From Enterococcus rotai (GTDB lineage Bacteria > Bacillota > Bacilli > Lactobacillales > Enterococcaceae), in assembly GCF_001465345.1 (NCBI RefSeq), contig NZ_CP013655.1, positions 3,349,091 to 3,413,090 on the forward strand: a stretch of DNA of 64,000 bases, read 5' to 3'. Shown here one piece after another: positions 30,215-47,213 of the stretch. The notes under the pieces were generated by a model, which saw only the letters and a program-made list of their open reading frames with translations, was not told the DNA's origin and made no database searches. Within the stretch, counting starts at the first letter, position 1; each line of letters opens with the position of its first letter. The position numbers and the translations under genes are program-made.

Positions 30215-32755
30215 TTAAAACTTCGTTAACATTGTTCGGCTGATGATTTCATCTTGAACATCCTTACATAACTCAACGAAGAACGCACTGTATCCTGCTA
30301 CCCTAACGATTAAATCACGGTATTCTTCTGGATGTCTTTGAGCTGCTAACATTGTTTCATTATCTAAATAGTTAAATTGCATTTCACCATTACCTAAAAT
30401 GCTGGCTGTTTTTAATAAAGTGATCAAACTTTCTTCACCTTCAGGAGTATTTAATAAACCTGACATGATCTTGAAGTTATGCACCATTCCCATGTTCATT
30501 GTGTCGTTCGCCATTTTAGAAATAGATTTCACAATTGCTGTCGGTCCTTTAAAGTCCGCTCCTTGTGATGGGCTAATACCATCAGACAACGGAATCCAAG
30601 CTTTACGACCATTTGCCGAAGCACCAGTCATTTGGCCTAGAGGTGTGTTATTTGAAATCGATAATGTTCCATGACATAGTTCTGAATACAACGTTTTGTA
30701 TTGACGGTGTTCTGCTTCTGTAAAGTGAATCAATTCCGCTGCAATTAAATCTGCGTAATCATCATCATTGCCATATTTTGGTGCATTTAAGCAATCGGTA
30801 CGAATTTGCTCATAGCCAACAAAATCAGCTTTCAAGGCACGGTTTAATTCTTCTAGTGTATATTTTTTGTCATCGAAAACTAGTTTTTTGATAGCCGCCA
30901 TTGAATCCGCATAAGTCGCTAATCCAGACCAAACAACACCTGGTCCAAAGTTATACATTGCGCCACCTTCGGAAACATCTTTACCATTTTCCATACATCC
31001 TTCGTACATCAATGACATTAATGGCTTCGGTGCTAAATCGCGATGAACTCGTTGCGTAATGACCGTAGCAACGGATGACCATTTTGTAATATATTTGATT
31101 TGCCCTTTAACGGCTTCCTCAAATTGTTCGTATGTGGTAAATTGAGAAATATCCCCCATATCTGGACAAACTTCTTTGCCGTACCATAACGGTACACCAC
31201 GATTTAAAACAAGTTCGATACAGATCGGCCATTGTGTATAAGCTGTTGAAGTCCACTGATATAAGCGGCCTGCTTTTTGCGGTTCAACACAGCCCATTAA
31301 ACAATAATCACGGGCATCTTCGATTGACACCCCTTTTGCTAGCATCATTTTGATATGTGTATCATCAAAGTGACAAGCTGGGAAACCGATCCCTGCACGA
31401 ACAACGTCTACAATTTTCTTCAAATATTCACGTGGTGAGCGATTATGGATTCGACAAGCTAATGATGGTTGATAAACTTTGACATGACGAACTGCATCCA
31501 TTAATAAGTAAGTTAGTTCATTTGTAGCATCGTGTCCTTCACGGGTCACGCCACCAACACACATGTTAACAAATGGTTGATAGCCAGCGAAGAATTTAGA
31601 ACCGCCTTCACTTGTGATCCACATCATTTCAGACATTTTAATCAACATACAACCCGCTAATTCAAATGCTTCAAATTCATTCATTTTACCTTTATCTAAA
31701 TCATTTTTGAAAAATGGGTACATATATTGATCCACACGGCCAATTGACATCCCAGTTTGATTTTCCTCTACAACAAGTAATGATTCAATTGTCCAAACTG
31801 CCTGAATCGCTTCCCAGAAAGTTTCTGGTTTGTGTGCTGGAACTTTTGCATTTATTTCAGAAATTTTTTGTAATTCAGCTTTACGTTTAGGATTTGTTTC
31901 TTGTTGCGCTAATTGTGCTGCGTATTCAGACATTCGACGGGCATAAATCATGACACCTTCAGTTGTATCGATCAATGATTTATAGAAATAAATTTTTTGA
32001 ATGTCATCAGGATTTTGATAGTCTAAGTTTGCTAAATGTTCTTGCGCTTCTTTTTGAATATCCAACATGCCTTTTTTCATTAAAATAACATCATAGCCTG
32101 GATTAGAATCGCCACCACCATTTAATTGATGGTATGAACAATCGGAAACAAATGACTCCCCAGATAATTCCCAAACCCCTGCTTCGCGGAATTGATCTTC
32201 GCAATATTCATCAATTGATCTGCCCTTCCAAAATGGAAATAGCTCTTCGCGCATAATCCGTTTATCTTCATCGGAAATATAGAACGGATCTTGGGGGCGA
32301 CTTGAAATCGTATCGATTTCCTCTTCCATCCAACGCCAAGCGATGTCTGGAGAAAAAGCGCCTGCTCGTGGTGCGCCATTGGGTGCTCCTACGATCAATT
32401 CATTATCTTGAATAACTAAGGGAGCTGTTTCACAACATCGTTTAAATGATTTTGCTCTTAAAACATTTTTGGGCATTCCTGGATTTTCTTTGGCAAGTTC
32501 AGTGATTACTCTTGCACGATGCGTTGTGATCGTCGGTTTTTGTTTTAAATAATTTGCCTTTAAAGCTTCTAAACGACCCGTAATCCCATTGGGAATTGCC
32601 GATTCATTGTCAGAAGCAAAGCCACCACTTGTCGAACTAGTTTCTGTTGTATCATCTGCAACGGTTGCAAACATTTTCATCAAGGCACTACGTTCTTCTG
32701 AACTTAGTTCTTTGGTTGCTTCGGCTAATTTTGCCGAAAATTCTTTAATATCCAT
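30215..32755 (-). CDS. cutC: Choline trimethylamine-lyase CutC (glycyl radical enzyme)
   Basis: The 846-residue enzyme is the same length as the short GRM1-type CutC and its catalytic and choline-site residues fall at the positions I know from Desulfovibrio CutC: Cys489 and Glu491 in GCVEPQK, Gly821 in RVAGYSA, Asp216 in LNGGGDSN, Tyr208, Phe395 in GYQPFVN, Thr502 and Tyr506 in [10 protein letters not shown]. It cleaves choline to trimethylamine and acetaldehyde in the compartment. Residues 1-30 ([17 protein letters not shown]...) form an amphipathic helix, a likely encapsulation tag, then a Ser/Thr-rich linker. This residue match excludes propanediol dehydratase and pyruvate formate-lyase. 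Confidence 0.97.
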
Positions 32756-32779
32756 TTTATTCCCTCACTTTACAACAAA

Positions 32780-34216
32780 TTATTTTTCCATTATTTTTTT
32801 TAAGATTTTTTCTAATACTTCTGTATCCAAGCCGTTTTTGGGCTCTGTTGTCTTATCTTCTACGATCGAATCCATTGGATAGCTGATTTCTCGAACATAC
32901 GTCAAATCTTTTGCAGAAATGTTTTTGGCACTAATCCCGCGTCCTGTGGTAAAGCCACCAAGAATAATTGATACCGGTAAAGTCGAATTCAATCCCAAAC
33001 TTGCCGTACTCGCCGGTGCATTCACAATCATGCGTCCTACAGGTTTTTTTAAGGCAAATTCTTTCAAAACTGACTTGTTTTGCGAATGAATTGCTAGTGT
33101 ATGTCCGTTATTTTTTTCTTTTAATAATCGGATCGATTTTTCACAGGCATGCATCCAATCTGGTTCTAAGTAAAAAGCCAAAACTGGACACTTCATCTCA
33201 TTTGCAAAGGGATCTTCGTCATACATATAATGTTGCTCTGAAACCAAGACTTTCGTCGATGGGGCTACATTGATTTTTGCTGCGTTAGCTAACCAAAGAG
33301 CATTTTTTCCAATACAAGCTGGATTGATTTGATTATTTTCTGGTTGTAGCAACTCTAGTAAATTGTGTTCTTCTTCTTTTGACAAGAAATGCGCACCTTG
33401 TTGCAACAACAAGTCTTTAACTTCAGATGCAATGACTCCTTCTGCTATTAAATATTGTTCTGTCGCTGGTAATAACCCGCAGTCATATGCACGACTTGTT
33501 ATAATTGCTTCAACTGCTTGTTTTACATTTGCTGAACGTTCAATAAAAACTGGTGTTGCACCTGATCCGCCATAAATGATCGGCCGTTGGTAATTGGCTG
33601 CGTTGATATAGTTTTGATTACCAATAGCTAAAATCATTGAAATGTCTGGACTGGCTAGGATCTCGTTTACACCATTTTCTGTTAATGAACTGATACAGCC
33701 TAAGTAGCCTTTAGGCAACCCATTCTTCTCGCAAATTTCTTTCACTTTTTGAAAAACTAGCTGAGTTGTTTTTTGGGCTTTAGCATGAGGGATCAGGAGC
33801 ATCGCATTGCCTGATTTTATGCCGATCGTTAGACTATAGATAACATTTAATGCCGCATTTTCTGCTGGTAATAGAACTGGAATTACCCCAAATGGTACGC
33901 CAACTTGTAGAACATTCCCCGCTGAATCTTCTACGATATTTCCAACACAAAGCTGCGGCTCCAACTCATTAGATAACGCTTCCAAAAACTCTGCTGTCAG
34001 TAGCTCTTTATCTTTGTAGCAGCCCATATTGGTTTCTTCGACCTCAGCTGCTAAAAAATGGCTAATTTCTGGTTTAATTTTCTCAAGTAGTTGTTTTATA
34101 ATAGCATCAAGATTTTTTTGCTCGTAGTCTTTCACTAATTGTTGTGCATCACGTGCCGTTTCAACTAAAATACGAGCCTCTTGAATTGATAATAGATCTT
34201 CGTCTACATATTGCAT
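32780..34216 (-). CDS. Aldehyde dehydrogenase homologue lacking the catalytic cysteine
   Basis: This 478-residue protein aligns along its length with EutE/PduP dehydrogenases (GVIPVLLPAENAALNVIYS, GGSGATPVFIERSANVKQA). At the nucleophile site, where the active paralogue reads FDNGTICASEQ, it reads YDCGLLPATEQ: the Cys is Pro250, and the only nearby Cys (246) is four positions earlier. It is therefore probably inactive as a CoA-acylating enzyme. The C-terminal VLEKILKKIMEK is a clear encapsulation-type helix, so it is still cargo. A structural, scaffolding or regulatory role is possible. It lies just upstream of cutC. Confidence 0.85.
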   Translation of the reverse strand: MQYVDEDLLSIQEARILVETARDAQQLVKDYEQKNLDAIIKQLLEKIKPEISHFLAAEVEETNMGCYKDKELLTAEFLEALSNELEPQLCVGNIVEDSAGNVLQVGVPFGVIPVLLPAENAALNVIYSLTIGIKSGNAMLLIPHAKAQKTTQLVFQKVKEICEKNGLPKGYLGCISSLTENGVNEILASPDISMILAIGNQNYINAANYQRPIIYGGSGATPVFIERSANVKQAVEAIITSRAYDCGLLPATEQYLIAEGVIASEVKDLLLQQGAHFLSKEEEHNLLELLQPENNQINPACIGKNALWLANAAKINVAPSTKVLVSEQHYMYDEDPFANEMKCPVLAFYLEPDWMHACEKSIRLLKEKNNGHTLAIHSQNKSVLKEFALKKPVGRMIVNAPASTASLGLNSTLPVSIILGGFTTGRGISAKNISAKDLTYVREISYPMDSIVEDKTTEPKNGLDTEVLEKILKKIMEK

Positions 34217-34219
34217 CTA

Positions 34220-34540
34220 CTATGCATCTCCCTCCTCAACAGGTAAAAGATTACTTAATTGATAACGGTCAATCATTTTATTTAAATCGCCGTGAGGACT
34301 TGCAATCACGACTGAGCTGTAAACTTTCGCACCGAGCTTTTCAACAGCGGTAATGCCTGCTTCAACAGCCGACTGACATGCAGCAACATCTCCTTGCACG
34401 ATCACAGAAATGTATCCTGAGGCAACATTTTCATACCCAACCAATTCAACATTTGCAGCCTTGCACATTGCATCACAAGCCTCTAAAACAAAAACTAAGC
34501 CAAATGTTTCGATTGCACCAATTGCTTCATAGGTCTTCAC
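34220..34540 (-). CDS. BMC-H shell protein (PduA-like) with short C-terminal extension
   Basis: A 106-residue BMC domain (AIGAIETFGLVFVLEACDAM; ASGYISVIVQGDVAACQSA) with a ~20-residue tail ending in LLPVEEGDA. Its pore loop (ENVASGYISVI) and edge differ from the near-identical bracketing pair, so it probably forms a distinct facet tile. Three bases separate it from the next gene. Confidence 0.93.
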   Translation of the reverse strand: MKTYEAIGAIETFGLVFVLEACDAMCKAANVELVGYENVASGYISVIVQGDVAACQSAVEAGITAVEKLGAKVYSSVVIASPHGDLNKMIDRYQLSNLLPVEEGDA

Positions 34541-34557
34541 TCATCTTCCTCCTTATA

Positions 34558-34854
34558 TTAGCTATCAATATCATGAACTGAAACAATATCACCAACATAT
34601 GAAATTGGTCGTGGCATCACATTTTGTGCTGTTAAATTACCAATCTCTGCTGCCGCTTTGGCCCCCGCTGCAACAGATGCTTCAACCGCTGCAATGTCTC
34701 CTTTGATCATGATCGTTACTAGAGTAGAACCAATATTTTCATAAGAAATCAGTTCAACATTTGCAGCTTTCAACATTTCATCAGCAGCCTTTAGCGCTGG
34801 AACTAACCCTGTTGTTTCGACTAAACCTAAAGCTTCTTCGCCACGATATCTCAA
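34558..34854 (-). CDS. BMC-H shell protein
   Basis: A 98-residue BMC domain (ALGLVETTGLVPALKAADEM; GSTLVTIMIKGDIAAVEAS). The pore loop is ENIGSTLVTI rather than VGGGIVTV, hinting at a different pore chemistry. Spaced 17 bases from the next shell gene. Confidence 0.94.
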   Translation of the reverse strand: MRYRGEEALGLVETTGLVPALKAADEMLKAANVELISYENIGSTLVTIMIKGDIAAVEASVAAGAKAAAEIGNLTAQNVMPRPISYVGDIVSVHDIDS

Positions 34855-34866
34855 TGTGTTCCCTCC

Positions 34867-35160
34867 TTACACTAAACGATATTTTTTATCAACATATTTA
34901 TCGACGGTTGCTCTACCTTCATCGGTAATTCTGTAGTAAATGACTAATTTATCATGCTCATCCAAATCATAAGTTGCTAACTCAACCATTCCGTTAGCTT
35001 CTAGTGCCATCATATGTTCTAGATACATCGCTTCGTTAAATTGTTTTTCTTGCCCATATTGAGGGGCTAATTCCGCCATAATCTGAGCAACATCTATTTC
35101 TCTTTGGTCATACATTTGGTTTAAAACAGCAGTTCTACTAGGTAAAAGCATCTTATGCAT
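34867..35160 (-). CDS. Small winged-helix-like protein of the choline operon
   Basis: I do not recognise the family with confidence. The 97-residue protein looks like a winged helix: helices at ~8-20 and ~22-33, a third around YLEHMMALEANGMV, then two strands VELATYDLDEHDKLVIYYRIT and a final helix TDEGRATVDKYVDKK. It resembles small PadR/MarR-like folds that read DNA, but an HTH recognition helix is not clear. It overlaps the transporter gene by eight bases, so it is firmly part of the operon and may be a local regulator. Confidence 0.6.
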   Translation of the reverse strand: MHKMLLPSRTAVLNQMYDQREIDVAQIMAELAPQYGQEKQFNEAMYLEHMMALEANGMVELATYDLDEHDKLVIYYRITDEGRATVDKYVDKKYRLV

Positions 35161-36157
35161 CCCCCTTTTTAAGTAAATCTAACGGGTTCATTGTAACTAG
35201 AATTGCACCGATCACAATAATAATCGAGCCCATCACCATTGTTGGTGTCAGCGTTTGACCTAAGAAAATGACACTAAATAGGACACCCCAGAATGCATAG
35301 GTTACATTCAATGACATTCCGATCGCCGTTCCCACCATCGCATTAGCCTTGTACCAAGTTAAGAAGGAAACAGCTGCACTTAATCCAGATAACACTAACC
35401 ATAAAACAGGCGTTACTGCTGCAAGTGTTCCAAATAATAAGTTAAAAGCACCAACTGCTGGTACGACAATAATCAAAACAACCAAACCAGAAATCAATTG
35501 ACGTAAGTTTACTGCTACATCGGTATCAATCATTGCACCACCAAAACTTGAAAATACACCTTCTAATCCCCAAGCAATTGCAGCTATCAACGCACAGATG
35601 ATTCCTAGCGTAAAGTTAGGAGCTCCCTCTGGTTTTACCATATTAATCGTAATTGCTCCAGCTACGACTATCACCATTCCTAGAACAATTCGGGCAGTTG
35701 GTTTCTGCTTTAAGAAAATCCAAGAAAACAAAGCCCCAAACAAACTACAAGTTGCTGAAATAGGAATGGCATAAGCGCCAGCCATTGCTAACCCGACAAG
35801 ATAAGCCCCATTCGCAATCGGTCCACCTAATAGAAATCCTATGACTAATAATTTCCCAGGCTTTGTATGCAAGGTTCTCATCAATTCTTTTAATCTACCT
35901 TGTTTTGCGTTATAAAATAAAAGTAAAATTCCTGCAAAAAAATCATTTAACCCAGAACAAACAAAAGGTGCCGCCAAGAACCCCGCTGCACTAACTAATG
36001 GATCATAACCACTAGCTACAACAACTAATGTTGAATAAATGCCATACGTGATACCAGAAATAATCCCATTACTGATTCCTTTCACTCGGAAGCCTTTTTT
36101 TGCTTGATCCATCTTAACGTCTGCATTGGTACAAGAAATATTTTTTCCGCTTTCCAT
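35153..36157 (-). CDS. EamA/DMT-family transporter, probable choline-pathway permease
   Basis: A 334-residue protein with about ten membrane helices in two EamA repeats (first ~30-170, ending in the conserved IFLKQKPTARIVLGMVIVVAGA; second ~185-325 with SVIFLGQTLTPTMVMGSIIIVIGA). Position after the first shell gene suggests it imports choline or exports trimethylamine or another product; the sequence cannot tell which. A 28-residue N-terminal cytoplasmic lead precedes helix 1. Confidence 0.82.
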   Translation of the reverse strand: MESGKNISCTNADVKMDQAKKGFRVKGISNGIISGITYGIYSTLVVVASGYDPLVSAAGFLAAPFVCSGLNDFFAGILLLFYNAKQGRLKELMRTLHTKPGKLLVIGFLLGGPIANGAYLVGLAMAGAYAIPISATCSLFGALFSWIFLKQKPTARIVLGMVIVVAGAITINMVKPEGAPNFTLGIICALIAAIAWGLEGVFSSFGGAMIDTDVAVNLRQLISGLVVLIIVVPAVGAFNLLFGTLAAVTPVLWLVLSGLSAAVSFLTWYKANAMVGTAIGMSLNVTYAFWGVLFSVIFLGQTLTPTMVMGSIIIVIGAILVTMNPLDLLKKGDA

Positions 36158-36186
36158 ATTTACTTCTCCTCAATCGTTATTTTCAA

Positions 36187-36462
36187 TTATCTATTTGGTA
36201 AAATATTTTCAACTTCACTATGTGGACGTGGAATAACGTGTACAGATAATAACTCGCCAACACGTTCAGCTGCCGCAGCACCTGCATCGGTTGCAGCTTT
36301 GACCGCACCAACATCTCCTCTGACCATAACAGTGACAATACCGCCACCGACAAATTCTTTTCCAATTAGTGAAACATTGGCAGCTTTGACCATTGCATCT
36401 GCTGCTTCGATCGATCCAATCATTCCTCTTGTTTCTACCATTCCTAATGCATCATGTTTCAT
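36187..36462 (-). CDS. BMC-H hexameric shell protein (PduA/CmcA type), first gene
   Basis: A 91-residue BMC domain ([39 protein letters not shown]) that is nearly the same protein as the last gene of the operon (21330). As promoter-proximal gene it is probably the most abundant tile. The ATG follows GAGAGGAAG. Confidence 0.95.
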
Positions 36463-38638: not shown

Positions 38639-39418
38639 GTGAAAAAAATATCGATTGCTTTATCTCTATTAGCTGCGTTAGTTTTACTTGGCGCTTGCGG
38701 TCAGTCTGAAAAGAGCAAAAATGAAGAACTAACTAAACAAGCGGAAACCGTTTTAAAAGGAAAAGTCGAAATTCCTGAAACATATTTTAAAACAAAAGAA
38801 CAAGTGACTGCTGAATTTGATTCTGTCGGACTAAAACCAAAATTCGTCGTTGCCAATTTTGATGATGCTGCACAATACAATAAGCGATTCCTAAGAAAAG
38901 ATGAGTGTGATCAAATCTCTAGTGACCAAGGTGCTGTTACTTATTATGATACGAAAGCAGTTGGTGATAAGCATGGCTTTTACGCAGATAAAGGAGCAAC
39001 TATCATCGTCGGTTAATCGGATCACGACTACGATGGAACGCAAAATAAAGAAAGTACAACGGAGGAATCTACTTCCTCTTCCAGTAAGAAAAACAATGAA
39101 GTCGTTACCTCTCAAGAATCAGAGTCACTGGCTTTTGAAGCTAAAGATGTGTCAGACGAAACGATAAAATCAATAAAAACGTATGAAGATTATTTAAATA
39201 TGTACTAAGCAATCATCAATAACTATTTCTCCGATTATGAAAGTATGATAAAGGATACGATTTTATATAATCAAACCTCGTTTGACGAACAAAGAAAGCA
39301 ATTTGAAAAATATGGCAATAAACGCCTATTTGGTAAGGATTCTTTAGTTGACTTTTTAATTGACTATCGAGACAGTCTGAAGGAGATTACTGATAATTTA
39401 GCAAAGACTTTACAATAA
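38639..39418 (+). pseudogene. Secreted lipoprotein gene broken by two in-frame TAA codons
   Basis: The frame starts GTG with MKKISIALSLLAALVLLGACG, a signal peptide and lipobox (LLGAC). It continues through a PASTA-like stretch (TAEFDSVGLKPKFVVANFDD) to TAA at 39014-39016. The same frame then reads on without interruption (SDHDYDGTQNKEST..., a Ser/Glu-rich linker) to a second TAA at 39206-39208 after YEDYLNMY, and on (AIINNYFSDYESMIKD...) to the final TAA at 39416-39418. Both stops look like single-base changes (for example TAT or AAA/CAA to TAA) in an otherwise intact ~259-codon gene. The first fragment could still be secreted. Confidence 0.85.
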
Positions 39419-39673
39419 ACAATCGGAGAGAAAAAAATTTCTTGCTAGAAAATCATACTATCTAATTGGAAAACATTTATCAATTAAATACAGGGCTTTT
39501 TTTGAAACTAATGAATAACTTGATAGTTCTTCAAAAAGTAGTGAGATCAGAGAAAGTTAATTTTTTTACTATTCTGAAGCTAAGAAGAGGTTTACAAAAT
39601 TTGTACTTTCCATTTTGAATTTCTGCATTTTCTTCTAAACTACTCCTTTTACTACCAGCATTATTAAGATTTT
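39419..39673. other. Intergenic, no supported gene
   Basis: A+T-rich DNA after the lipoprotein pseudogene. No reading with a ribosome site is seen. Confidence 0.4.
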
Positions 39674-39735
39674 ATGCGCATGAGACTAGGAATAACTTGA
39701 AGAGTTATATCCCAACCTCATGCGCATTCTTTATT
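39674..39735. repeat. Long stem-loop (TGCGCATGAG element)
   Basis: ATGCGCATGAG pairs with CTCATGCGCAT; inside, ATAACT pairs with AGTTAT. The tail TTCTTTATTT is a weak T-run, so it may terminate plus-strand transcription, but it also looks like one of the intergenic repeats of this genome. Confidence 0.65.
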
Positions 39736-39887
39736 TAACACCCAAAAAGAAACAGCAAAAACTTTTCGGCTCTTCTATAATTGGATAATGAGAGTCTGAT
39801 TCCATATTTTTTAAACAAAAAATGATTGCTCGTTGTTTTTCGATTACCTTGCAGCACTTTTCATGAAATAGTTAAGCTCATTTCCGT

Positions 39888-42434
39888 TTAATGTTTAACA
39901 AAAGAGTGAATATTAGAAGCAACGGCTAAACTTTCAATATAATCATATACTGATTCTTCATTATACCCTTCCCTAATTAAGGCAGATGCTATTAGTGAAT
40001 ACTCATTCACCAAATTCGTTTGAAAAATGCTACTATCATCTGTATTAATGGATATAGGAAGATTAAATACTCTAGTTTCATTATTATCTTCTATATGTTT
40101 ACGATTTAGATTCAGTGAAGGTAGCTTGATATACTGATCAACATAAGAAATTTTTTTATTTGATGTTGGGTTTGATTCAATAAAGACTCTCATCTTCAAT
40201 ACTTTTCTTTTAATTATTTGTTGCACGTTCTCCAGACAGTGAATAAAAACAGGAGTGACCACCATCCCTATAGACTGATCAAATTTATTTCTAAACGCTT
40301 CAGAAAATGAATAGTTCAAAAATAAATTCCTTGCCTTGTCATTCATAAAGGCTGATTCATGCCATTGATTTTTATAATTCAGCTTGTATTCAAATTGACG
40401 GCACACTTTCTTATAAGACATCTGCTCATTATATTCTATATGTGCATCTGGGCAATCTCCTCTTAAAAAATAAAAATTAAAATAGTCGGCAAATGATACC
40501 AGGTTACTTTGATCAAATAGTAAATGATTGTATTTTGTATATTCCTTTTTTAAAAATAATAAATTGCTGTCTTCTTTATACTGATTATCTTCTATTAGTA
40601 CAGAGTACATCCAAACTAAATCATCTAGATAATCTCCAATAGAACACATCACCTTCTTTCGCTTGGTTTCATAGTAATCAGCCACATTGATTCCTAATGC
40701 TAACGCATGACCTAGACGATCATTAGAACGATAATCGCAAAAAGTTAGCACTTCATCTACTGCTCGTATGCCATTACTTAACGTTGAAAACTCTTCCCCC
40801 ACATGATAAGTAGCGTATAAGCTTTCACTATTTTCAGCTAACTGTCTGATTTTTCTAAAATACAAAGAATATAATGTCGGTCTATTTTCTAATTCATAAT
40901 TTGCAGTATCTATTCCTAATATTCTATGTTTAAAAGAGTCTACCTCTGACACTAAACTTAATTCATTAATTTTAACTAATGTTTCTAATAGTATATTGGT
41001 TTGATGTTCTATTCTCTCTCTCTTCGTCTCTTCTGTTTTTACTGTAGTTTCACCACTTATTCCAAGTGTTTTAATAAAATGAATAATTAAACCAAATTGA
41101 ATTTCCGCTGGTGTTTCCAATCCTTGCTTTTTCATTCTACTTTCTGCTAGCTGATGCTCCTTCTTATTTAATCTAATCATTCTGCTAAGTTCTTTTAAAT
41201 AGTCATCTGGCGTTTCTTCTGGACCAATTCTAAACTCAATTCGTTTAACATATCGCTCACAATAGTATTTATGAAATACACTACGAATAACATCTTCTTT
41301 ACTTTTCTTATCTTGAATAAACCAGCTTTTATTGTCTTCTTTCTCTTTAAATTTAGCAAATCCCATTCCTAAGTTATCTTGTACGAATTGAAACTTTAGA
41401 TCAGTCATACCACAAATATATAAATTGAAAATGAATAAGAATACTTTATGATATTCTAAATTTCTATCCGTACTTAATAGTATCATCATCTTTTTTAAGA
41501 AGTGTAATTCAGAAGAAGCATAATTTGTTACATCACCTTTATTGTCAAAATCTGACCACGCATCTTTAAACTCTTCCAACAAGATTTCCAAGTCAACAAG
41601 ATGCCTTATTTCAATTATCGTCTGTAACATATCATCGGATAAAAGAACCTGCATAATAATATCAATCCAGTCAAAATCTGATAGAGGATATTTCGCAAGT
41701 TTTGCTTCTAAAATCAAACGAATAACTTTGAATTTCAATATAAAGTGCACTTTCTCAGACACATTTTTGTCAGACTTTACAAGTGTCGCATAAACACCCT
41801 CAGTTCTGACAAAATCAGCATAGTCATTCACAGCAAATAAAGAGCATTTTATGAAAGAATACCAGTTAATATCCGTAATATAACCTGAAGCCTTTAGGTG
41901 CATATGATTTTCTGATAAACCAATCCGCTTGAATATATCATAAAGGCGTTTGTTATTATGATTCAATGTACTTGTTAACAAATTTGTATCGTTATTAACA
42001 TGATTGGAGACAAGGTAAGCCGCAATAAATAACTTGATATCAACTTTATTAATCAATCCATCCCATTCTAATAAATCATCAAAATGGATATAAATACCTT
42101 CTATCCCTTGACAAATGATTGAATCAGTAACTAAAAAGATTAAATATAGAGCATTACTACTATCATACTTATCTAGTAACTGTTGCGTTACCAAGTTTAA
42201 TATAAAATCTAAATCATTGGTATTATAGTTATTGGGATATAATAGTAGATATTTATTTTTAATTGTTGTTCTCAAAGATGTACTACTCAAATCAAAACAT
42301 TCATCTATCTGACTTAAACTCGATTTATCATAAATAGTAGATTGATATAAATGATCATTAAATGATAATTCCTTGTATACAATACGGATAATTCGATCAA
42401 TTTCTTTGTACAATACAGTGCTTTCTTGCTCCAT
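39888..42434 (-). CDS. rdrB: RdrB-like giant adenosine deaminase (RADAR system)
   Basis: This 848-residue protein holds every adenosine deaminase motif, spread over a much longer chain than a metabolic deaminase (~340 aa): metal ligands H177/H179 in ENHMHLKAS, H544 and catalytic E547 in ATYHVGEEF, H576 in NDRLGHALALG, FIESNPTSN (753-759) and the distal D799/D800 in SINTDDSS. Large insertions sit between motifs. It follows the P-loop ATPase gene by one base. Size, motifs and partner match RdrB of RADAR, which assembles into large shells and deaminates ATP/adenosine on phage infection. The region is more A+T-rich than its neighbours. Confidence 0.85.
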   Translation of the reverse strand: MEQESTVLYKEIDRIIRIVYKELSFNDHLYQSTIYDKSSLSQIDECFDLSSTSLRTTIKNKYLLLYPNNYNTNDLDFILNLVTQQLLDKYDSSNALYLIFLVTDSIICQGIEGIYIHFDDLLEWDGLINKVDIKLFIAAYLVSNHVNNDTNLLTSTLNHNNKRLYDIFKRIGLSENHMHLKASGYITDINWYSFIKCSLFAVNDYADFVRTEGVYATLVKSDKNVSEKVHFILKFKVIRLILEAKLAKYPLSDFDWIDIIMQVLLSDDMLQTIIEIRHLVDLEILLEEFKDAWSDFDNKGDVTNYASSELHFLKKMMILLSTDRNLEYHKVFLFIFNLYICGMTDLKFQFVQDNLGMGFAKFKEKEDNKSWFIQDKKSKEDVIRSVFHKYYCERYVKRIEFRIGPEETPDDYLKELSRMIRLNKKEHQLAESRMKKQGLETPAEIQFGLIIHFIKTLGISGETTVKTEETKRERIEHQTNILLETLVKINELSLVSEVDSFKHRILGIDTANYELENRPTLYSLYFRKIRQLAENSESLYATYHVGEEFSTLSNGIRAVDEVLTFCDYRSNDRLGHALALGINVADYYETKRKKVMCSIGDYLDDLVWMYSVLIEDNQYKEDSNLLFLKKEYTKYNHLLFDQSNLVSFADYFNFYFLRGDCPDAHIEYNEQMSYKKVCRQFEYKLNYKNQWHESAFMNDKARNLFLNYSFSEAFRNKFDQSIGMVVTPVFIHCLENVQQIIKRKVLKMRVFIESNPTSNKKISYVDQYIKLPSLNLNRKHIEDNNETRVFNLPISINTDDSSIFQTNLVNEYSLIASALIREGYNEESVYDYIESLAVASNIHSFVKH

Positions 42435-42435
42435 G

Positions 42436-45117
42436 CTAACTGTCTCCTTGGCGTTCCAATTCTGTCACTATTTTTTCTAAATAGCTTACTTCTAATCCCG
42501 AAATTTGGTTTCGATTGCTTGGTCTTATAGTATCTGTTGCACGTTCTTTTTCTCTGTGAGTCATTGAACTTGGCCAATTTCTATACACAGCCCAATAGCT
42601 TCTCAAAAAGTCTTTAACTATATTAACATTTATGTTATAAGCATTCGGTTCATCATTATACATGTCAACAAAGCGATTAATATTTTGTTTAGCTTCATCT
42701 AATAGTTCAGATTCATCTATCAGCGTTTCCTCTTCCTTCGCTAATTTTAATTTTTCTATGTCAATTAACGGTTTGAAGACAGAACTCACAGCACTGGATT
42801 TCACCACTATAGGAATTGACATGTTAGCACGTAAACTGATTTCGTCACTAGTGTTTAATGTATTAACAAAAATATCATTTACTTTATCTAAAGCGTAATT
42901 AAATGGATTTTTTTCATTTTGTCGTGTATAACTTTTGCGAACAAAAAAGTCCAAATCAAACATATTATAAAATAAATATTCTTTTAATTCCTTCCCATAA
43001 CAAATATGATGAAATACCTCTAATACATAACTCATATCAGTCAAACTAGCAAAAGGATCTACTAAATAATTATATCCATTAACAAAAACTCTTTTTTCGA
43101 AAAAATTCCTAAATTTAAAACTATAATATTTTTGACTAGGTTGATAGACAGGCTGATCTTCCCCAAATTTTCTAATATCTCCTGAGGCTGAAATATCACT
43201 AAAAAACAGTCTTTGAACATAATATAAATTAAAATTTGTTTCAGCATACTTTCCATTTAATTTATCATTATAATAAAATGTATCTGGCATGATTTTTCCT
43301 TTAACCAGCATGAAATACTGTTCTAATCCAATCTCTTGTATAATTTGTCTCAGTGGCTCGATACTTTTATCATGCTCAACAGTATTAGAATTAGGAGCAG
43401 ATACTATATTACTTAAATTAAGCTCTTGCATTGACTCATCATAAATCCCCTTCACTGCTTCACTACTACAAAATTTATTAAGCGATTTTGTTAACAACAG
43501 TAAATTTTCAATTGAGTATAGTATTTTTAATGCATAAAGAAAATTCAAAGCTTGAACATTTCCGTAATATTTTGTTTTAAAACGTTCAAAAACCGTGAAC
43601 ACATTTCCTAATGTCACATTATAAGCTGACTTATGATAAAGATTCATCTCATATTCTGATAAAAGCATATCTTCATGTTGGACTTTACTACTTTCAACCA
43701 AATCTAGTAAGCCAGTTACCACCAAACTGTTACGCGAGCTATAGTCACGTTCTAACCAACTGTCAATTATATTCATATAAATTTTATTCAAACTGTCTCT
43801 AAACTTTGAAATTAAAAAGTATTTTAATGATTTAATGTTTTTTCTCATGAGAGGCAAGCTAACTTCCAATTTTTCATCACGGTCAATAGCTTCTTGAAAT
43901 GGGTGAAAATTATGAATAATTTCTAAATACTGCAATAATCCTCTCAACTGTCTTGGATAAACTAAATCAGTGATTTCAATCTGATCCATTGGTTCTATAA
44001 CCAATCTTGTTTGTTTTCGCACCTCTTCCTTCATAAAATCCGTAATAGTCTTATTTCCAAACACATCGTTTATTTGTGGTTTTTCAGCTATAAAAGGACC
44101 AAGTATATCTTTAATTTTTGTTTGTTTATTAATTAATAAGTAGGTTCTTTGTGCACGAGGCAATCCTTTTTCAAGCATGTTTGTAGCTTGCTCTTTAATT
44201 TCTTCTGCAGTAATAAAAGGTGTTCTACCAGTATCAAATATCGTAGAAAATTCCGATTGACTTACCAAAATATTTTTATTATCTACCAATAAATTCGATA
44301 CTACGGAGTTAATTAATTGCTCTTCTCTATAGGCTAAAAATAGCACAACTTTTTTTTGATACTGTAAAAATTTGAAAATATCCTGCAATGTTTCATATGC
44401 AATTTCATTAGGTACTAAATCCAAATCATCAATAAATAAACAGATGTGCGAATATTCTTTCTCACTTGTCATATTGATAACGTCTAGATAATGATCAATT
44501 AATTCAGTAATATTTTTTCTAAATTCCATTTGATTTTGTAAATTATCCAAGACTTCTACCCGTGTTTTATTTTCCGCATAAGAACTCTTTTCGATACGCA
44601 TATCTTGCAAAAGTTTTACAATTTCTTTTATTTTTTTATCAAATCGTACTTTTCCATAAATTGATTGATCTTTCAAAGAATAACGACCATCATTTTGGCA
44701 TGCAAGATCTACTTTATTTTTCATCATTGCTAAAACAGACTCTATCAACTTAATTTTCCCTGCAAATAGGCTAGGATCAAGTGTTGGAAAACAATACAAA
44801 TTAGTGTGCGTCTGTTCAAAAATCATATTTCTTTCAATCGAATTTCTTAAAGTATTGATAAAAGAACTTTTTCCCACCCCACGTTCACCAACGATACTAA
44901 AAATATTATTTGTTCCTTGATTCTTACTATCCTGTTTCTCAGTGTCAACACATTCATCCGAACGAAATGCTTGAAGCCACTTAATGGTTTGTTGAAATGG
45001 CATGCTATAAAGATAATCACTATTCTCGATTTCTTTAACACTTTTAAAGGCTTGATGTTGATATTCTTTACTTGCTTTTGACCAATCAATTGAAATTTCT
45101 TGGAAACTTTTGTACAT
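42436..45117 (-). CDS. rdrA: RdrA-like P-loop ATPase (RADAR system)
   Basis: The 893-residue protein has Walker A GERGVGKSS (77-85) and Walker B HICLFIDDLDLVPNE (D230/D231) with the pattern of KAP/STAND-like ATPases, followed by a long helical C-terminal region (~300-893) without a familiar domain. It has no signal peptide and no clear membrane helix. Together with the deaminase gene that starts one base after its stop, it fits RdrA, the ring ATPase that senses infection and activates or feeds RdrB. The ATG follows GGAGAG. A separate terminator isolates it from the phosphoesterase unit upstream. Confidence 0.85.
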   Translation of the reverse strand: MYKSFQEISIDWSKASKEYQHQAFKSVKEIENSDYLYSMPFQQTIKWLQAFRSDECVDTEKQDSKNQGTNNIFSIVGERGVGKSSFINTLRNSIERNMIFEQTHTNLYCFPTLDPSLFAGKIKLIESVLAMMKNKVDLACQNDGRYSLKDQSIYGKVRFDKKIKEIVKLLQDMRIEKSSYAENKTRVEVLDNLQNQMEFRKNITELIDHYLDVINMTSEKEYSHICLFIDDLDLVPNEIAYETLQDIFKFLQYQKKVVLFLAYREEQLINSVVSNLLVDNKNILVSQSEFSTIFDTGRTPFITAEEIKEQATNMLEKGLPRAQRTYLLINKQTKIKDILGPFIAEKPQINDVFGNKTITDFMKEEVRKQTRLVIEPMDQIEITDLVYPRQLRGLLQYLEIIHNFHPFQEAIDRDEKLEVSLPLMRKNIKSLKYFLISKFRDSLNKIYMNIIDSWLERDYSSRNSLVVTGLLDLVESSKVQHEDMLLSEYEMNLYHKSAYNVTLGNVFTVFERFKTKYYGNVQALNFLYALKILYSIENLLLLTKSLNKFCSSEAVKGIYDESMQELNLSNIVSAPNSNTVEHDKSIEPLRQIIQEIGLEQYFMLVKGKIMPDTFYYNDKLNGKYAETNFNLYYVQRLFFSDISASGDIRKFGEDQPVYQPSQKYYSFKFRNFFEKRVFVNGYNYLVDPFASLTDMSYVLEVFHHICYGKELKEYLFYNMFDLDFFVRKSYTRQNEKNPFNYALDKVNDIFVNTLNTSDEISLRANMSIPIVVKSSAVSSVFKPLIDIEKLKLAKEEETLIDESELLDEAKQNINRFVDMYNDEPNAYNINVNIVKDFLRSYWAVYRNWPSSMTHREKERATDTIRPSNRNQISGLEVSYLEKIVTELERQGDS

Positions 45118-45176
45118 TATTTTTCTCTCCGTTCAGTTTATTTATAAAAAATAGTCAATTATTTGTATACATTCCA

Positions 45177-45205
45177 AATATATCAATTAAAAGCCTAAAA
45201 GTAAA
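45177..45205 (-). promoter_or_regulatory. Candidate promoter of the rdrA-rdrB operon
   Basis: Minus strand TTTACT (45205-45200), 17-base spacer, TATATT (45182-45177), 60 bases above the ATG. The sequence around it is so A+T-rich that alternatives exist. The remainder of 45206-45390 holds no gene. Confidence 0.45.
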
Positions 45206-45390
45206 TAAAACATTATAAATCGAAAAATACATAGGGTGAACATTTTTCTTCTAATGTAATAAAAGAATTTGTAATTATTGCTAGTTCACCTATATTTCCA
45301 TAGTAAAAACCACTATTTTAAAGTATCTGAAGAGACAAAATTATTCACCAAAATACATAAAAAAAATGATTGCACAGAACCATTCCTTTT

Positions 45391-45447
45391 AAAAAAGAAG
45401 AATTTCACAAAAAATGGAAATACCATTTTCGTGAAATTCTTCTTTTT
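45391..45447. terminator. Bidirectional terminator between phosphoesterase unit and rdrA
   Basis: AAAAGAAGAATTTCAC and AAAATGG arms pair with CCATTTT and GTGAAATTCTTCTTTTT around AAATA: about 24 bp with A/T-runs on both flanks. It shows that rdrA is not simply read through from upstream. Confidence 0.85.
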
Positions 45448-45488
45448 CTGGTGTTAAGATCTCTATTCAAACTTCATTTAATAAACTA

Positions 45489-47213
45489 TTACTCTATTTC
45501 TAAATTTTCATCTTTCATAGAACTAGCATTTATAAGATTCATCAATTCAAATCCAGTATTCAATTTAGAATAAATCGAACAAACAACAAATAGTTCTTTC
45601 CCTGCAAATGTTACCATCTTATATCGTCCAGAAGACGCTGGTATATGATGATGACCATGAATAGCGCCAATTATATTGTACTCCTCAAACAGCTTTTCGA
45701 TTTTCAATTCTGAACAATTATATTCTTTATTATAAGCTGTACTTTTGGGTGAAAGCATACTTAGTTCATTGAACAATGGCGTATGAGAAACAATTACAGT
45801 GGGTATATCATATTCGTTGTTTAGTAACTGAGTCAATGCCTTAAAGATAAATTTTTGTAGTGCTTTTTTTCGTCTCACTAATACAACTGGGATCGTCAGT
45901 CCGATATAGCGAATACCGTTATGAATAATGCTATTATTATGTAACACGTGCATTTTGGGAAACCGTTTTTCAAGTTCGACTTTTACACGTTCATAATAAA
46001 CATGATTGCCTATAGGTAACTTGGACCAAGACTCATCTGGATGTTGCATAAGATCTTGAAACCACCTGTTTTTGAAAAACGGTTGCCATTTCTCCCTTTC
46101 TTCATTTTCTATATTCTGATCTTTTGGCAGTACATTTGCTAAGTCATGATTGCCTATAACATAAAGCCCCTTAATAGTTTCATTCACAACATGAGAGTCA
46201 GAAATATCACCCACTAAAATATTAAAATGGTCATTCGTAAATGCAAATTCTCTATCAATTGTATGAATGTCAGAAACAACATTTATTAAATGGTTATTTT
46301 CTGTTGGAAGTACATTTTCAAAATAGTGTTCTAGCTCTCTTGGATCTACACTATGAGCCACGTATTTTTTCCGAACTTCAGATAGCTCTTTACCAAATTC
46401 TGATCGTAAAAGCAGTCTATTATTTGGCGATACAGTTTGCTTGGTGGTAACGATCGCTCTTTCTAGCGTTTCTTTGACGTCTTGAGGAAGTAAAGCTAAA
46501 GCTGGTTGAATATCCGTGCCTAATGTTAAGTATCTATCTGACATAAAACCTTCTTGGTCCTGTGTTTTTAATAGTTGAACACCTTTCCCATCAGTCATTA
46601 TAGGAAAGGTTTGAGTCAACTGAACAACAAAATTTAAGTATTCTGAAACATAGCCTGATATTCCTGTTTTTACATTTTCACTAAATAAAAATTTCCCTGC
46701 CAGATTAGCAGAGAGAGCACCTGTTTCATCATGTTGAAGTAAACGTCCTAGAATTTGAATCTCGAATAAGGGATCTTCGAATATCGCATTATAAGCTTGA
46801 ATCACTTCAGAAGAATGCTCGTCCACCTTTTTGTTCGTTACCTGGAAAATACTTAACTTAAGATAGGTTTTTAGATTTTCTTGATGGGATTCGATATATT
46901 GACGAGCTGCTTCTGGATAAAGTAAATACTGAATTGCGGCACGTTGTATATAGTTTCTAGCAGTGTCATATGGAATCGCCGAATAAACAAGCTCACCTTT
47001 TGACGATATATTCAACGAGTTTTCTTTTATATTATAGGTTAATTGAAAGTAATCATTTTTAAACAACGTTTTATTGACTGGTCGTCGCTTATTTTCTGGG
47101 TACAAATCAAGGCGAGTTGCAAGTTCTGTTGGTAGCCCTATTTCATCTATTTCAGGTGATAATGTGCTTTGTATTTCAACTAATGAAGACTTTTTACGCT
47201 TACTTGATGTCAT
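45489..47213 (-). CDS. Two-part calcineurin-like metallophosphoesterase, defence-associated candidate
   Basis: The 574-residue protein has an unrecognised, mostly helical N-terminal part (~1-300, with RNYIQRAAIQYLLYPEAARQ) and a C-terminal calcineurin-like phosphoesterase with all metal motifs: SDIH (D315, H317), GDISD (D336), GNHD (N355, H356), SHTP (H477) and GHHH (H521-H523). Such enzymes cut phosphodiesters in nucleotides or nucleic acid. It follows a small membrane protein gene by 31 bases and is read toward RADAR. It could be an unknown accessory or an independent system; nothing in it identifies the substrate. Confidence 0.8.
   Translation of the reverse strand: MTSSKRKKSSLVEIQSTLSPEIDEIGLPTELATRLDLYPENKRRPVNKTLFKNDYFQLTYNIKENSLNISSKGELVYSAIPYDTARNYIQRAAIQYLLYPEAARQYIESHQENLKTYLKLSIFQVTNKKVDEHSSEVIQAYNAIFEDPLFEIQILGRLLQHDETGALSANLAGKFLFSENVKTGISGYVSEYLNFVVQLTQTFPIMTDGKGVQLLKTQDQEGFMSDRYLTLGTDIQPALALLPQDVKETLERAIVTTKQTVSPNNRLLLRSEFGKELSEVRKKYVAHSVDPRELEHYFENVLPTENNHLINVVSDIHTIDREFAFTNDHFNILVGDISDSHVVNETIKGLYVIGNHDLANVLPKDQNIENEEREKWQPFFKNRWFQDLMQHPDESWSKLPIGNHVYYERVKVELEKRFPKMHVLHNNSIIHNGIRYIGLTIPVVLVRRKKALQKFIFKALTQLLNNEYDIPTVIVSHTPLFNELSMLSPKSTAYNKEYNCSELKIEKLFEEYNIIGAIHGHHHIPASSGRYKMVTFAGKELFVVCSIYSKLNTGFELMNLINASSMKDENLEIE

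Follow-up and report, generated by a model that had tools for sequence, protein, structure and literature searches.

Combining sequence and profile searches, alignments, predicted structures, trees and empty-site comparison, we conclude that two adjacent genes of Enterococcus rotai very probably form a complete RADAR operon, rdrA-rdrB, which most likely arrived as a compact insertion and which, judged by homology, would convert (d)ATP into (d)ITP. Both genes lie in the window, by which we mean the whole stretch of 64,000 nucleotides analysed. The system itself is already known as RADAR; what is new is a divergent Gram-positive example of it. A sequence-only reading of the window had recognised RADAR in this two-gene pattern, and the RdrA and RdrB sequence matches, the fold matches and the gene order all support it.

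The gene pair and its place in the RADAR family

The ORF list of the window holds, as the sequence-only reading had it, two long ORFs on the minus strand spaced by one base: rdrA (42436-45117, 893 aa), a KAP/AAA+ ATPase according to Pfam, phmmer searches of the PDB, alignment and Foldseek, and rdrB (39888-42434, 848 aa), an adenosine-deaminase-family protein according to PADLOC, NCBIfam, phmmer, alignment and Foldseek. The single base separates the rdrA stop codon from the rdrB ATG, and GGAG-like stretches resembling ribosome-binding sites can be read in the sequence ahead of both start codons. This tandem of rdrA followed by rdrB is the RADAR gene arrangement, which is published for all known RADAR systems (PMC9994260).

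The rdrB frame is full length, with no internal stops, and its product carries all four of the deaminase motifs previously claimed for it (HMH at 177-179, HVGEE at 544-548, LGH at 574-576 and NTDD at 797-800). Its 848 aa, set against the 326-376 aa of the best-matching adenosine deaminase chains, bear out the statement that it is over double the length of a metabolic deaminase. As judged by spacing only, the insertions that distinguish RdrB from metabolic deaminases (N-terminal, inside the core and after the last histidine) are present, the motif spacings being 177/367/32/223/49 in the window protein and 154/346/32/218/51 in the E. coli-type one. The zinc/catalytic-type residues H177, H179, H544, E547, H576, D799 and D800 are identical in all 12 aligned RdrB rows, and the first five (H177, H179, H544, E547, H576) align with E. 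coli H152, H154, H498, E501 and H530, i.e. with the histidine tetrad (H152, H154, H498, H530) and the catalytic glutamate (E501) of the E. coli protein (PMC9994260); in the E. coli-type row of the alignment the numbers are larger by two, its frame beginning two residues earlier.

The following lines of evidence place the deaminase with RdrB and not in an ordinary purine family. First, the PADLOC RdrB model matches it at 1.8e-23. Second, the NCBIfam RdrB model gives 134.9 bits (cut-off 800) versus 23.7 bits for the adenosine deaminase model TIGR01430 (cut-off 216.55), and Pfam A_deaminase yields 24.1 bits, under its cut-off of 27. Third, a phmmer search of the PDB at E-values up to 1 matched only two sequences, both of them E. 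coli RdrB (8fnw/8fnv, 2.3e-14). Fourth, a seven-RdrB profile, which is not independent in that it includes an Aliivibrio row annotated as RADAR, matches 8fnw at 7.7e-87 and metabolic deaminases at 1.6e-10 or weaker. The curated NCBIfam cut-offs are not reached by the window pair (134.9 of 800 bits for RdrB, no match for RdrA). These cut-offs are narrower than the RADAR family, since a system almost identical to the solved E. coli one likewise stays under them (RdrB 116.2 of 800, RdrA 134.1 of 600). With this prophage-borne RdrB (locus L067, 1775 bits to the solved E. coli protein) as a yardstick, the window RdrB is the better scorer with the NCBIfam RdrB model (134.9 vs 116.2 bits).

As for the ATPase, both motifs claimed for it are present, GERGVGKSS at 77-85 (Walker A, with K83) and LFIDDLD at 227-233 (Walker B, with D230/D231), and Pfam KAP_NTPase matches at 2.8e-10. 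A phmmer search of the PDB returned S. suis RdrA (8fnu) at 5e-27 over residues 72-745 of 893 and E. coli RdrA at 6.9e-5; a six-RdrA profile, again not independent as one row (Aliivibrio) is annotated RdrA, matched 8fnu at 1.5e-50 and the E. coli chains at about 1e-35. Among solved structures the ATPase thus matches RdrA, with S. suis as the best match. The search with curated models, proposed as a check along with the sequence-only reading, held for one gene of the two: RdrB models match the deaminase, whereas no RdrA HMM of either PADLOC or NCBIfam matches the window RdrA. Nor do these models match the RdrA of the relative G147, which is similar to S. suis RdrA at 1.8e-55, or the open part of the Enterococcus alcedinis RdrA; as a control, the PADLOC RdrA models do match the E. 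coli-type, Aliivibrio and Aureibacter RdrAs.

In RdrA, K83 of Walker A is found in all 12 rows covering that position, and D230, D231 and the sensor-2-like R392 in 13 of 13; their E. coli counterparts in the alignment are K82, D221/D222 and R377, described as the Walker A, Walker B and sensor-2 residues (PMC9994260). The sensor-1 column (E. coli D253) holds an aspartate in nine of the 13 rows, a glutamate in the window, E. alcedinis and L070, and a lysine in Aureibacter, with a two-residue alignment gap at that place. The crown residues (E. coli K150, E151 and R162) read K, V and K in the window and vary across the 13 rows.

Comparison of predicted folds with solved structures points the same way, at low confidence. 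The AlphaFold models have a mean pLDDT of 56.3 for RdrB and 43.3 for RdrA, and they were built from shallow alignments (4 and 5 rows) whose E. coli-type rows favour a RADAR-like outcome. Against the PDB, Foldseek found eight matches for RdrB at E<=0.001, all of them RdrB/RdrA-RdrB chains (8fnv, 8hr7), the next being Cad1 at 0.037. For RdrA it found 20, all RdrA/RdrA-RdrB chains with S. suis first, the next being ClpX at 0.081. Both models thus match only RADAR chains at this threshold, with low TM-scores (0.21-0.37 by query), and the fold details of the poor RdrA model (pLDDT 43.3) outside the ATPase domain were left unused.

The same searches bear on the proposal that the 848-aa protein is some other deaminase effector, either a metabolic adenosine/AMP deaminase or a Cad1/CARF-ADA-like protein, encoded beside an unrelated ATPase. 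Its weak matches to A_deaminase (24.1 bits) and CARF_ADA (E 0.011) and the place of Cad1 as next Foldseek match (0.037) would agree with this, but RdrB models and structures outscore these matches by far, residues 72-745 of the neighbour's 893 match RdrA, and a similar pair stands at all 12 other loci examined. The proposal is already contradicted, and we give it next to no credence. Cad1, the CARF-adenosine deaminase of type III CRISPR, is akin to RdrB as a defence deaminase described as making ITP; it differs by a CARF sensor domain of its own, and the window RdrB reaches it only at 0.037 by Foldseek.

With the pair assigned to RADAR, the solved systems can be set beside it. The RADAR of S. 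suis SS993 (8fnu) shares the tandem rdrA/rdrB, and its RdrA is the solved structure that best matches the window RdrA, in sequence (5e-27) as well as in fold; the two RdrAs, to which this comparison is confined, are distant, aligning only over 72-745 of 893. The E. coli RADAR (8fnt/8fnv/8fnw, 8hr7) resembles the window pair in gene order (as at L067), in the histidines, glutamate and aspartate pair of RdrB, and in the Walker A/B and sensor-2 arginine of RdrA, at identities in the alignments of 22% for RdrB and 15% for RdrA. It differs in its three-glutamate interface, which was not found in the window, in its sensor-1 aspartate, replaced by glutamate, and in crown residue E151, which is not conserved.

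Parallel divergence of RdrA and RdrB among relatives

Searches with the single RdrB protein found rdrB in one of 22 genomes of the genus, one of 105 of the family and two of 395 of the order, the genome of the window being counted in each of these overlapping samples, as in those that follow. A profile search found a long RdrB in three of 398 class genomes (the window's own, G567 and G600) and in one of 398 phylum genomes (the window's own). The profile matched 29 class genomes altogether, the other 26 only between profile positions 733 and 843, with frames of 174-383 aa, and 33 of the 398 phylum genomes, where only the window's own has a long RdrB. Such a wide profile also picks up ordinary deaminases, and short matches were left out of the RADAR count. 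A scan of genome contigs found one relative, Enterococcus alcedinis. Among 50,697 phage records there was no RdrB match, and among viral contigs the single-protein query gave seven pattern matches and no relative; of 72,556 plasmid records, seven have an RdrB-like gene and one an RdrA.

At all 12 other loci whose upstream DNA was inspected, rdrB is directly preceded by a long RdrA-like P-loop gene; the set takes in four of the seven plasmid matches and leaves out the other three, L068 and L069; for Cetobacterium, Rhizobium and G567b, the likeness to RdrA comes from alignment and weak BLAST matches. The order of the two genes is therefore retained at these loci, though the E. alcedinis copy of rdrA carries a stop. 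The E. alcedinis locus (L002) has the closest RdrB found (48% in the alignment) and the same gene order as the window, and it differs by this in-frame stop and by flanks in which no likeness was detected. The stop (in L002:7176-7652) lies just before the P-loop, with rdrB open, and reflects either a decayed gene or a sequencing error.

Trees were built from 12 RdrB rows and, with L070 and the partial sequence of E. alcedinis set aside, from 11 RdrA rows. The starred groups common to both trees unite the window with G147; the E. coli-type sequence with L071, Rhizobium and Aliivibrio; and Cetobacterium with G567a, G567b and G600. Aureibacter joins the window group in the RdrB tree (91/95, not starred), and the RdrA tree does not settle its placement. 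RdrA and RdrB have thus diverged in parallel, the trees agreeing save for this one fork.

Several of these loci have features of their own. Genome G567 holds two rdrAB pairs that differ from each other and are separated by about 26 kb (L072:4380-10020 and L073:4490-10728), with RdrBs of different subgroups. The IMG/VR contigs L067 and L071 carry rdrAB amid phage genes, and L068 and L069 probably do so as well. At L067, which is nearly the solved E. coli system, the pair is flanked by an exonuclease VIII-like gene and by a CI-like repressor with O-like and DnaB-like replication genes; at L071 it stands beside anti-repressor and terminase/portal/head genes. A 2022 survey describes RADAR as almost never found on prophages (PMC9090908). 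In Rhizobium leguminosarum, an annotated adenylosuccinate synthetase (L022:8992-10593), possibly linked to inosine nucleotides, lies 0.9 kb downstream of rdrB.

The probable insertion and its surroundings

Two congeners, G003 (L025) and G004 (L013), lack rdrAB and have its two neighbour genes adjacent to each other. Homology to both flanks ends 178 bp apart in G003 and 195 bp apart in G004, where the gaps between the lipoprotein and metallophosphoesterase ORFs measure 157 and 156 bp, respectively; positions 39423-45546 of the window (6,124 bp, 29.3% GC) have no counterpart in either genome. These are two of the 14 other genomes of the genus that have the metallophosphoesterase gene; the stretches compared from the remaining 12 gave no match to the left flank as far as 39422. 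Insertion is the most likely origin of this segment of about 6.1 kb, and a better account than repeated loss because rdrB occurs in one of 22 genus genomes, alongside two empty sites. The description of the pair as an acquired island draws its support from these empty sites, and less from base composition.

The DNA is indeed unusually A+T-rich, as had been noted, rdrA and rdrB (29.7% GC each) being the two lowest of 45 ORFs measured (mean of the other 43, 37.4%, sd 2.5); of 52 ORFs reaching 120 aa, seven that overlap others, run antisense or are broken had been left out of this sample. Low GC is nevertheless a weak sign of foreign origin, because the RADAR genes are also below their surroundings at five of five other loci (L002, L023, L072, L073 and L074), by 3.5-8.5 percentage points; those of E. 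alcedinis have 28.9% GC versus 37.4% around them. Low GC may be a property of the RADAR genes themselves.

Apart from rdrA and rdrB, the segment 39423-45546 holds only ORFs of up to 87 aa, and hence none of integrase size. No tRNA was found in the window, no Rfam family at gathering threshold in its 36-50 kb part, and no direct or inverted repeat of at least 14 nt at both segment ends (searched with an 11-nt seed, which short target duplications would escape). An inverted repeat (22 nt, loop of 12 nt) at 45392-45447, ending in a T-run on the minus strand, is a probable terminator between the metallophosphoesterase gene and rdrA, and is absent from the terminator-scan list. Downstream of rdrB, the core of an imperfect inverted repeat of 18 nt (39674-39727) occurs once in the genome at up to three mismatches. 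Promoter-like sites number 40, versus 40.3 in shuffled sequences, which provides no promoter evidence.

The setting had been given as between a broken lipoprotein gene and a metabolic operon. The first half stands: the lipoprotein gene (38639-39422, plus strand) is broken relative to its homologues in G003 and G004, which are open (270 and 276 aa). The second half needs correction: rdrA adjoins a metallophosphoesterase gene (45489-47213, minus strand, 574 aa), and the operon lies beyond, with a metalloenzyme-superfamily gene, probably a phosphopentomutase, and then YhfX/Z/S/T-type genes. The metallophosphoesterase was rejected as a third RADAR component, being a gene of the genus outside the system (in 15 of 22 genomes, versus one of 22 for rdrB); in addition, the right flank of the window has no match in L002 or L023. 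The plasmid RADAR loci L022 and L021 have annotated metallophosphoesterases downstream of rdrB, at distances of about 4 and 6 kb, and flank comparison found no match between these and the window's gene. An accessory membrane gene was likewise sought and rejected, the gap between rdrB and the lipoprotein gene having no ORF of at least 60 aa; in Aureibacter a SLATT-domain gene overlaps the end of rdrB (L019:9252-9959), and in Cetobacterium a VanZ-family gene follows it (L020:8513-8944).

The wider site is variable. As named by eye, L024 and L025 have PTS, 6-phospho-beta-glucosidase-like and antiterminator-like ORFs there, L024, L027 and L029 have DoxX-like ones, and L027 also has an ABC-transporter pair. 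The flanks on either side of rdrAB in L002 and L023 have nothing detectable in common with those of the window, which fits mobility. Elsewhere in the window, a pyruvate-formate-lyase-like glycyl radical enzyme, an aldehyde dehydrogenase family gene and a microcompartment shell-domain protein (30215-36462) probably make up a glycyl-radical microcompartment locus.

The decay of the adjacent lipoprotein gene raises the question of whether rdrAB is itself a decaying, non-functional remnant, as would also fit its presence in one of 22 genus genomes, the only one from which the operon is known here, and the stop just before the RdrA P-loop in the E. alcedinis relative. Both window ORFs are however full length, catalytic-type residues are retained, and ribosome-binding-site-like sequences precede both starts, and we consider a remnant very unlikely.

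Predicted mode of action and significance

We infer the assembly, the substrate, the infection trigger and the defence role of the E. rotai system from the published systems of E. coli, C. rodentium and S. suis. According to PMC9994260, assembly and deamination were shown for E. coli RADAR, ITP and dITP also accumulate with C. rodentium RADAR, and the S. suis system protects E. coli from T-even phages. By analogy, RdrA would form ATP-driven rings, which would detect some feature of phage infection and attach to a shell built of RdrB; this second protein, a predicted zinc deaminase, would then turn ATP/dATP into ITP/dITP, poisoning the nucleotide pool in such a way that phage replication would fail and the infection be aborted.

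A different mode of action for the same system is that RdrA loads RNA onto RdrB, and that RADAR acts mainly through A-to-I RNA editing. RNA editing was first proposed for C. rodentium RADAR (in the original report as described in PMC9994260), PDB entries for RdrA rings carry the title 'RNA-loading state', and a weak editing signature, about 4% at ssrA, is given for C. rodentium RADAR (PMC9994260). Against this, the same paper describes no strong A-to-G signature for E. coli RADAR and, in vitro, the conversion of ATP into ITP without RNA editing, and the window RdrB aligns with mononucleotide deaminases. We hold editing as the main activity to be very unlikely, and retain nucleotide deamination by a RADAR operon as the preferred reading. 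What counts against the RADAR identity is the missing match to the RdrA HMMs, the low confidence of the models, the lack of the three-glutamate interface and the glutamate in place of the sensor-1 aspartate.

The interface deserves attention, as PMC9994260 calls the E. coli triplet E595-E597 (interface 3) conserved and needed for the E. coli RdrB shell and for defence. In our 12-row alignment, which is gappy in this stretch, these glutamates are not found in the window RdrB, and the full triplet appears only in the E. coli-type row. The triplet was not treated as RADAR-defining, since the Aliivibrio RdrB, annotated as RADAR, also lacks it. Given the missing interface, the window RADAR may assemble otherwise than that of E. 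coli. We tentatively raise the possibility, which we think more doubtful than not, that one lineage, comprising the window, E. alcedinis and G147 (joined by S. suis, through the similarity between G147 RdrA and 8fnu), is a distinct RADAR subtype, jointly marked by an RdrA that escapes both the NCBIfam and the PADLOC RdrA models and by an RdrB shell without the E. coli three-glutamate interface.

The distribution given in the sequence-only reading, mainly Enterobacteria with some Streptococcus examples, proved too narrow, 270 RADAR systems from 75 genera and 7 phyla having been published (PMC9994260). RADAR is a rare system, present in 135 of 22,818 RefSeq genomes (quoted in PMC13327615). Among the papers searched, titles and the starts of abstracts yielded no enterococcal RADAR, and the supplementary table of the 270 systems (PMC9994260) may include Enterococcus.

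The E. rotai operon is a further full-length RADAR from a Gram-positive, one that can be compared cleanly with empty sites. As the curated models tested are narrower than the family, surveys relying on them probably under-count RADAR. If the tentative subtype were real, assembly or phage sensing may differ in this lineage, and RADAR would be under-counted in Gram-positives. Comparison with the E. coli RADAR could separate the essential from the lineage-variable parts of this giant assembly.
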